DNA of 64,000 nt, from contig NZ_LN555523.1 in the NCBI RefSeq assembly GCF_900015215.1, forward strand, positions 1,616,381-1,680,380. Direction: 5' to 3'. Position 1 is the stretch's first letter, and the number at the start of each line of letters is the position of its first letter. Shown here in pieces: positions 8,731-9,430 of the stretch. Made by a program: the position numbers and the translations under genes. The notes under the pieces are model-generated. The model was not told the DNA's origin. It did not search any database and saw only the letters and a program-made list of their open reading frames with translations. The stretch comes from Romboutsia ilealis. GTDB taxonomy: Bacteria > Bacillota > Clostridia > Peptostreptococcales > Peptostreptococcaceae.

Positions 8731-8795
8731 AGTTCGCTTCACTCATAGCGACAGCGACATGACACTTACTTTACTTGAGTGATGTGTGATTTAAA
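8731..8795 (+). repeat. Dispersed structured repeat, decayed copy d
   Basis: AGTTCGCTTCACTCATAGCG, then GCGACATGACACTTACTTTA and a GATGTGTGATTTAAATGC end. The 5' segment is recognisable but the CCGTTG arm is lost. It lies just before the ribosome binding site of the DUF1659 gene. Confidence 0.5.
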
Positions 8796-8837
8796 TGCTT
8801 TATATCATATAAAAATATTTTTTAGGAGGTAATAAAT

Positions 8838-9059
8838 ATGTCAGTTACAGAAGGTAAAAATCCAACTTCACTAAGAATGAAATTTGATTTAGGAAAAGAT
8901 GAGATTACAAACAAAACTAAAGTAAAATCTAAAACTTACTCAAACATTAAACCTGAAGCAACTTCTCAAGCAATATATGACGTTGCAACTGCATTAGAAG
9001 GACTTCAAGAATTTCCAGTACTTGAAGTAGTTAAAATTGAAAACACAACATTGGCCTAA
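8838..9059 (+). CDS. DUF1659 family protein
   Basis: A 73-residue protein matching the DUF1659 pattern: a Lys-rich beta region (KVKSKTYSNIKPEATSQ), a conserved helix AIYDVATALEGLQ and a C-terminal strand ending KIENTTLA. Function is unknown. The family typically neighbours DUF2922 and YvrJ-like genes in clostridia and bacilli, as here. An AGGAGGT ribosome binding site precedes the ATG. A near-copy of its last eight codons reappears at 9158-9183 after repeat copy e. Confidence 0.85.
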   Translation: MSVTEGKNPTSLRMKFDLGKDEITNKTKVKSKTYSNIKPEATSQAIYDVATALEGLQEFPVLEVVKIENTTLA

Positions 9060-9104
9060 ATTTTATTTTGTTTATAAATTAAATAATCATAATCTTATTT
9101 AAGG

Positions 9105-9160
9105 TTGATGGCGCCAACGATATAACTTTGCTACCGCTGCAGTTATATCCGTTGCTTAAA
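9105..9160 (+). repeat. Dispersed structured repeat, copy e
   Basis: GGCGCCAACG, arms ATATAAC / GTTATAT (perfect), TCCGTTGCTTAAA. The arm sequence differs from other copies by a compensated base pair. It lies between the DUF1659 gene and a remnant of a second one. Confidence 0.85.
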
Positions 9161-9183
9161 TTGATAATACAACATTAGCATAG
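9158..9183 (+). pseudogene. 3' remnant of a second DUF1659 gene
   Basis: Translated, this stretch reads K-I-D-N-T-T-L-A-stop, matching the K-I-E-N-T-T-L-A-stop end of the intact DUF1659 gene, with synonymous differences. The repeat core directly precedes it. The simplest reading is that a tandem second DUF1659 gene lost its body and the repeat now occupies that place. The fragment is only 26 bp, so chance or a local duplication cannot be excluded. Confidence 0.6.
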
Positions 9184-9202
9184 TATAAGGAGGTAAAATA
9201 TT

Positions 9203-9430
9203 ATGGAAATAAAAACAAAATTACTTATGACTTTTAAATCATCAGATGATAAAAAGGTGTCTATCACAGTAGACAACCCAAGAGAGGATTTAACAGAAAC
9301 TGAAATAAAGGAAGCTATGAATACTATAATAGAAAAAGATATATTCTCACCTAATGGTGGCTCTTTAGTATCAGCAGTTTCAGCTAAGGTTGTTCAAACT
9401 GATACTACTGACTATGATTTAGCATTATAA
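9203..9430 (+). CDS. DUF2922 family protein
   Basis: A 75-residue protein of the DUF2922 family: an N-terminal KLLMTFKSSDDKKVSITVDNP beta segment, the helix LTETEIKEAMNTII and a C-terminal AVSAKVVQTDTTDYDL. Function is unknown. An AAGGAGGT ribosome binding site precedes it. It is the second gene of a compact plus-strand trio with DUF1659 and the YvrJ-like gene. Confidence 0.85.
   Translation: MEIKTKLLMTFKSSDDKKVSITVDNPREDLTETEIKEAMNTIIEKDIFSPNGGSLVSAVSAKVVQTDTTDYDLAL

Follow-up and report, generated by a model that had tools for sequence, protein, structure and literature searches.

The native end of a DUF1659 gene in Romboutsia ilealis was quite probably orphaned, to judge from the sequence comparisons, when a second, diverged gene version became attached on its upstream side, so that a working gene with its own end would now precede a dispersed repeat and the stranded end of its counterpart. 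The gene lies in the window, the whole 64,000-nt stretch of DNA analyzed here, which comes from the 2,581,778-bp chromosome of R. ilealis CRIB (PMC5598433). The two-end layout is recurrent but rare and is found at unrelated genes; its recurrence at a glutamate dehydrogenase gene in other Romboutsia genomes is the new element of this analysis.

A DUF1659 gene end in two copies

The intact DUF1659 gene (positions 8838 to 9059, plus strand, as are the other features of this locus) is an open reading frame of 73 aa that matches Pfam PF07872 with an E value of 1.5e-22. Its terminus reads ...V-V-K-I-E-N-T-T-L-A-stop, and the last 26 nt of the frame, AAATTGAAAACACAACATTGGCCTAA (9034 to 9059), form the first copy of the duplicated end. 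An AT-rich spacer (9060 to 9103) leads from the stop codon to repeat copy e (9104 to 9160), which is followed by the second end, AAATTGATAATACAACATTAGCATAG (9158 to 9183; I-D-N-T-T-L-A-stop), by the ribosome-binding site AAGGAGG (9187 to 9193) of the DUF2922 gene, by that gene itself (9203 to 9430; an open reading frame matching PF11148, E value of 2.6e-27), and then by a YvrJ-family gene. The first and second ends are 124 nt apart. That the DUF1659 end recurs between copy e and DUF2922, as originally noted, was borne out at the coordinates then given, of which 9040 merely falls inside the first copy: the two sequences are identical at 21 of 26 positions, and a search of both strands of the 64 kb found identity of at least 19/26 to the gene end at these two places only. 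A chance similarity in an AT-rich spacer might be suspected where the genome has 28% G+C (PMC5598433) and the match is merely 26 nt long, but it has practically no probability in view of (i) a resampling of the 143-nt intergenic stretch, in which none of 20,000 Markov resamples reached 21 identities (mean best, 13.5; largest, 20), (ii) the uniqueness of the match in the 64 kb, (iii) the exact stop codon, (iv) the location of all five differences at third codon positions, and (v) the recurrence of the layout at another gene.

These comparisons support the view that 9158 to 9183 is a genuine remnant of a DUF1659 gene end, one that would have been coding for much of its separate history. The second end comprises the last 7 codons and the stop only, with the repeat immediately 5' and no trace of the body or start of a second gene, and its K codon runs together with the repeat terminus (TTGCT TAA ATT GAT...). 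Of the earlier suggestion that it is the relic of a second DUF1659 gene, the coding-like gene-end remnant stands, while a whole tandem gene is a possibility for which the locus holds no body traces.

Which of the two ends is native can be judged from three other Romboutsia genomes (G001 to G003, of which G003 is the metagenome-assembled genome "uncultured Romboutsia sp. Chicken_10_mag_106"). The DUF1659 orthologues are 85% (G003) and 82% (G001) identical to the gene in the window, and the gene is single in both genomes. In G003 its end, ...ACACTAGCATAG, runs straight into the DUF2922 ribosome-binding site, with neither a repeat nor a second end, and this position directly before the ribosome-binding site is occupied in the window by the second end, ...ACATTAGCATAG. 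Since it sits where the only DUF1659 gene of G003 ends, the second end is probably the native one; the working gene, spacer, and repeat look like the added part, and the native end has probably been cut off from its body.

Tandem DUF1659 genes ahead of DUF2922, which the original prediction had expected in related genomes, were looked for and did not turn up: none of the loci examined, including those from a family search across 71 genomes, has two DUF1659 genes before one DUF2922, and G003 has a single gene and no relic. The only close DUF1659 pair, in genome G094, is a duplication of the whole DUF1659-DUF2922 unit (L126; G094:C398:6800-8844), which, as judged by eye, is followed by a small YvrJ-like gene. 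Nor did the genomes examined include one with an intermediate arrangement, whether two DUF1659 genes before one DUF2922 or a DUF1659 gene with spacer and copy e but no orphaned end. Repeats of the family do occur at or soon after the DUF1659 stop codon in several genera (L004/L035, L008, L019, L033, L034, and L046), there without an orphaned end. The AT-rich spacer has no convincing relative in the four Romboutsia genomes, and no mosaic signal was seen along DUF1659, DUF2922, and glutamate dehydrogenase, genes that are short or for which the species are nearly equidistant.

In the G001 assembly, which consists of scaffolds, N accounts for 54,093 of the 235,001 bases read, and contig ends are duplicated. 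The assembly seems to have been scaffolded on a reference, as the gap lengths often match R. ilealis (e.g., L103 to L106 and L115 to L122), which makes its intergenic structures unreliable. An apparent tandem duplication of TCACTCAAAAAATAATTTTTAGGAGGT between DUF1659 and DUF2922 in this genome was rejected as a scaffolding artifact, similar duplicated contig ends being found beside N runs elsewhere, and L095, where the repeat at the start of another gene has a perfect duplication on its flanks, was set aside as the same artifact.

The same layout at glutamate dehydrogenase

The parallel case came to light when the flanks of repeats in the related genomes were scanned. In G003 (L096:1472-1592), the end and stop codon of the glutamate dehydrogenase gene are followed by a 38-nt spacer, a repeat, and a second gene end reading K-V-A-D-A-M-I-S-Q-G-I-I-stop, and G002 (L216:8122-8260) has the same arrangement, the event therefore predating the split of G002 and G003 or having been shared between them. 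R. ilealis, G001, and the outgroups have a single end and lack the displaced one, and the second end of G003 adjoins the terminator that in R. ilealis comes right after the single gene. The repeated end is about 46 nt long, the end-to-end distances are 126 nt (G002) and 127 nt (G003), and the join lies at TTAAAA, the same kind of junction as at DUF1659. The working and second ends of G003 differ at six positions, all of them third codon positions; the working end of G002 has two first-position differences from the orphaned end as well. Comparison of the second ends of G002 and G003 shows three changes, all at third positions, and one indel of 3 nt that keeps the frame. No repeat element lies upstream of glutamate dehydrogenase in G001, G002, or G003, and in R. 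ilealis the only weak repeat match lies downstream of the gene.

When 153 gene-repeat pairs were scanned at the protein level, the three instances of the layout scored highest (53, 31, and 29), all of them beside the end of the repeat; the null maximum was also 29, which means that the G002 case would not be notable by itself. A further scan of 137 pairs, which partly overlap the first set (about 290 in all), yielded no convincing third locus. The sequence scanned amounted to about 884 kb in R. ilealis, 800 kb in G002, and 422 kb in G003, i.e., parts rather than whole genomes. A "KTSLQI" repeat behind a collagen-like gene (L107) was dismissed as weak and as lacking a repeat element.

The coding-like character of the displaced ends could also be taken to mean that the second end is alive, in that excision of a 124- to 127-nt unit, from DNA or RNA, restores a gene with an alternative end and both ends are under coding selection. 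This fits the changes after the G002-G003 split, in which 3/3 substitutions are at third positions and the indel is in frame, as well as the distinct synonymous differences between the two glutamate dehydrogenase ends, conserved in both species, and the nearly constant unit length (124, 126, and 127 nt). The changes are, however, very few, and recombination with strains lacking the unit would yield the same pattern. Read-through cannot use the second end, because the distances are not all multiples of three. To our knowledge, no intron or recombinase fits a 125-nt unit; no Rfam match was found in the window, which led us to reject the unit as a known RNA, and no RNA fold of the junction was stronger than those of shuffled sequences. 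We regard a live second end as extremely improbable and give hardly more credence to the related proposal that displaced ends stay coding as the unit is often gained and lost or processed, which would make it a minimal gene-end cassette without a recombinase of its own.

Copy e and the dispersed repeat family

Copy e is a one-hairpin module of a dispersed repeat family, a rare variant with an AACT/AGTT stem that lacks the usual left part, TTCGCTTCGCTC. Its subtype can be written as TTTGCTACCGCTNCAGTTANATCCGTTGCTTAAATT, with two N positions, for which the only otherwise mismatch-free matches are copy e itself and one element of G001 that precedes the DUF1659 start by about 20 nt and differs from copy e at 2 of 36 nt; the next-best matches in the four genomes have three mismatches. 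Copy e may accordingly once have been the upstream element of a gene that then lost its body, an argument for a tandem stage that is weakened by the N-containing scaffolds and duplicated contig ends of G001. Upstream of the intact gene in the window lies a degenerate repeat element (8734 to 8796) that, in an upstream alignment made by eye and below the search threshold, apparently corresponds in position to the first element ahead of the gene in G003. Elements of the GCGCC type are found upstream of DUF1659 in G003; a D-aminopeptidase-like locus in G002 has GCGCC too, which weakens its value as a marker specific to DUF1659.

As empty sites in sister species show, the composite repeat moves as a unit and has been inserted at runs of A, flanked on either side by about 6 nt (TAAAAA). 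In the cleanest empty-site comparisons (R. ilealis L158:16528-16680 with L178 and L167 of G002 and G003; G002 L198:8244 with L224 of G003), it is inserted without loss of the flanks, beside TAAAAA runs of which about 6 nt are apparently duplicated. Many sites resolve less cleanly, so small deletions at other sites are possible. These comparisons bear on the earlier reading in which the repeat moved into the space left when the body of a tandem DUF1659 copy was lost, such deletion or replacement being a property of the repeat. The relic is genuine and the repeat occupies the very place of the missing body, as that reading has it, but the repeat filling the gap of a lost body sits poorly with the matching G001 element upstream of the gene, which suggests that the repeat preceded the loss; a repeat that brings local deletion or replacement runs counter to the clearest empty sites, which show clean insertion with the flanks kept; and the layout is known from two loci only. 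We therefore consider this reading very unlikely.

The insertion pattern bears equally on a single-step explanation, in which spacer and repeat were inserted near the gene end with a target-site duplication of 30 to 45 bp and both ends, derived from one sequence, later diverged. It is simple, and repeats that insert at TAAAAA-like targets would suit the TTAAAA at the join in both genes. Family insertions with resolved empty sites, however, duplicate about 6 nt (TAAAAA) rather than 30 to 45, and the duplicated stretches of 26 to 32 nt at DUF1659 and about 46 nt at glutamate dehydrogenase are far above this norm. In a simple equal-rates simulation, differences at third positions only would arise after a fresh duplication and free drift with a probability of about 0.03 in the window and about 0.016 at glutamate dehydrogenase of G003, a joint probability of about 5e-4, for ends that are short and have 11 differences at two loci. 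The second ends of G002 and G003, which differ only by third-position changes and an in-frame indel, speak against it in the same way. A long target-site duplication is thus unlikely.

The family comprises 94 elements in the 884 kb of R. ilealis. Four Y1 (IS200-type) transposase genes are present in R. ilealis (G000:C1, positions 1013089, 1700341, 1826462, and 2422944), and none was found in the other three Romboutsia genomes, which also carry the repeats; no plasmid or phage copies of the repeat were found. Repeat orientation follows the replication arm, 90 of the 94 elements in the scanned 884 kb being opposite to the leading strand and the polarity flipping with the GC skew (within the intervals of about 1.16 to 1.22 Mb and about 2.43 to 2.52 Mb); oriented repeats in the window include those at 1374, 2653, 7839, 9104, 13894, 26773, 37251, and 39823. 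Behind many repeats there is a second arm (TTTTTTACGCTC...AGCGTAAAAAA; in the window, 1437 to 1531 and 2755 to 2849) that carries the DnaA-box sequence TTATCCACA, and 33 of the 44 perfect DnaA boxes in the 884 kb fall inside second arms, about 10 in all being expected by chance. A 28-nt core of the repeat, AAATTCGCTTCGCTCATGTCGCCAACGA, is 100% identical in several genera and was found in 14 of 20 other genomes of the bacterial family that were sampled.

Proposed origin and comparison with known systems

The preferred explanation remains that the native DUF1659 end was orphaned by the joining in of a diverged gene version, and we infer that two diverged coding versions met. The added part would have consisted of the working gene with its own end (KIENTTLA-stop), a spacer of 44 to 47 nt, and repeat copy e, and it would have been joined to the native end (IDNTTLA-stop) within 5 to 7 bp of TTAAA(A) microhomology shared by the repeat terminus and the K codon of the gene. 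By comparison with G001 and G003, this junction lies at 9156 to 9162, where the terminal TTAAA of the repeat overlaps the TTAAAA of the gene. Two routes to such a join can be envisaged: (a) a tandem DUF1659 duplicate with copy e in between, in the order gene, spacer, copy e, and second gene, followed by a microhomology deletion of the second body, bounded by the AAATT that follows the repeat and the AAATT within the K-I codons, and (b) one-sided recombination bringing in an allele with the repeat downstream of its gene, the other side being joined illegitimately at the end of the repeat. For the window, we hold route (a) to be possible at somewhat less than an even chance and route (b) tentatively, at a slightly lower likelihood. 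A tandem stage is favored by the copy e subtype, found only here and upstream of DUF1659 in G001, and by the GCGCC-type elements ahead of DUF1659 in G003; it is disfavored both by the loci examined, in none of which a DUF1659 pair precedes one DUF2922, and by the glutamate dehydrogenase parallel, which has neither an upstream element nor a second gene. Route (b) would explain each locus in one step, and a process of this type is known in homology-facilitated illegitimate recombination (PMC6382021); the TTAAA(A) microhomology is present, and neither a donor genome nor a mosaic breakpoint was found in the genomes compared.

The two-end layout is probably a by-product, rare but recurrent, that recombination leaves around a dispersed repeat, in which the working end is kept and the native end is stranded behind the repeat. 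Stranded ends would then be directional footprints of recombination between alleles with and without the repeat and could reveal how repeats spread between Romboutsia lineages. Since glutamate dehydrogenase shows the same layout in two species, the mechanism is testable by strain comparison.

Several known systems resemble parts of this arrangement. Tandem duplication with decay would likewise leave a second, coding-diverged end beside a full gene, but no adjacent DUF1659 genes were found in close relatives, and what is left here is only the last 7 to 13 codons, starting at the end of the repeat. MITE-like short repeats share the many dispersed copies, the hairpins, the clean empty sites, and the short TAAAAA duplication, while the orphaned gene end falls outside their normal insertion pattern, the replication-oriented polarity (90/94) is unusual, and no transposase has been assigned to the family. 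Integrative elements can insert at the 3' end of a gene and provide it with a new one, according to the logic of att sites; they are comparable in that a working gene has an alternative, synonymously diverged end and the native end lies on the far side of the insert, and they differ from the present insert of only about 125 nt, which has no recombinase gene and is found at the ends of unrelated genes at two loci. Homology-facilitated illegitimate recombination can leave a partial gene duplication. It has been described in Streptococcus pneumoniae, Acinetobacter baylyi, and Pseudomonas stutzeri (summarized in PMC6382021). Our case is unlike it in that the illegitimate side falls, at either locus, where a dispersed repeat ends, and would be like it in having one side anchored by homology and the other joined at a few base pairs of microhomology.
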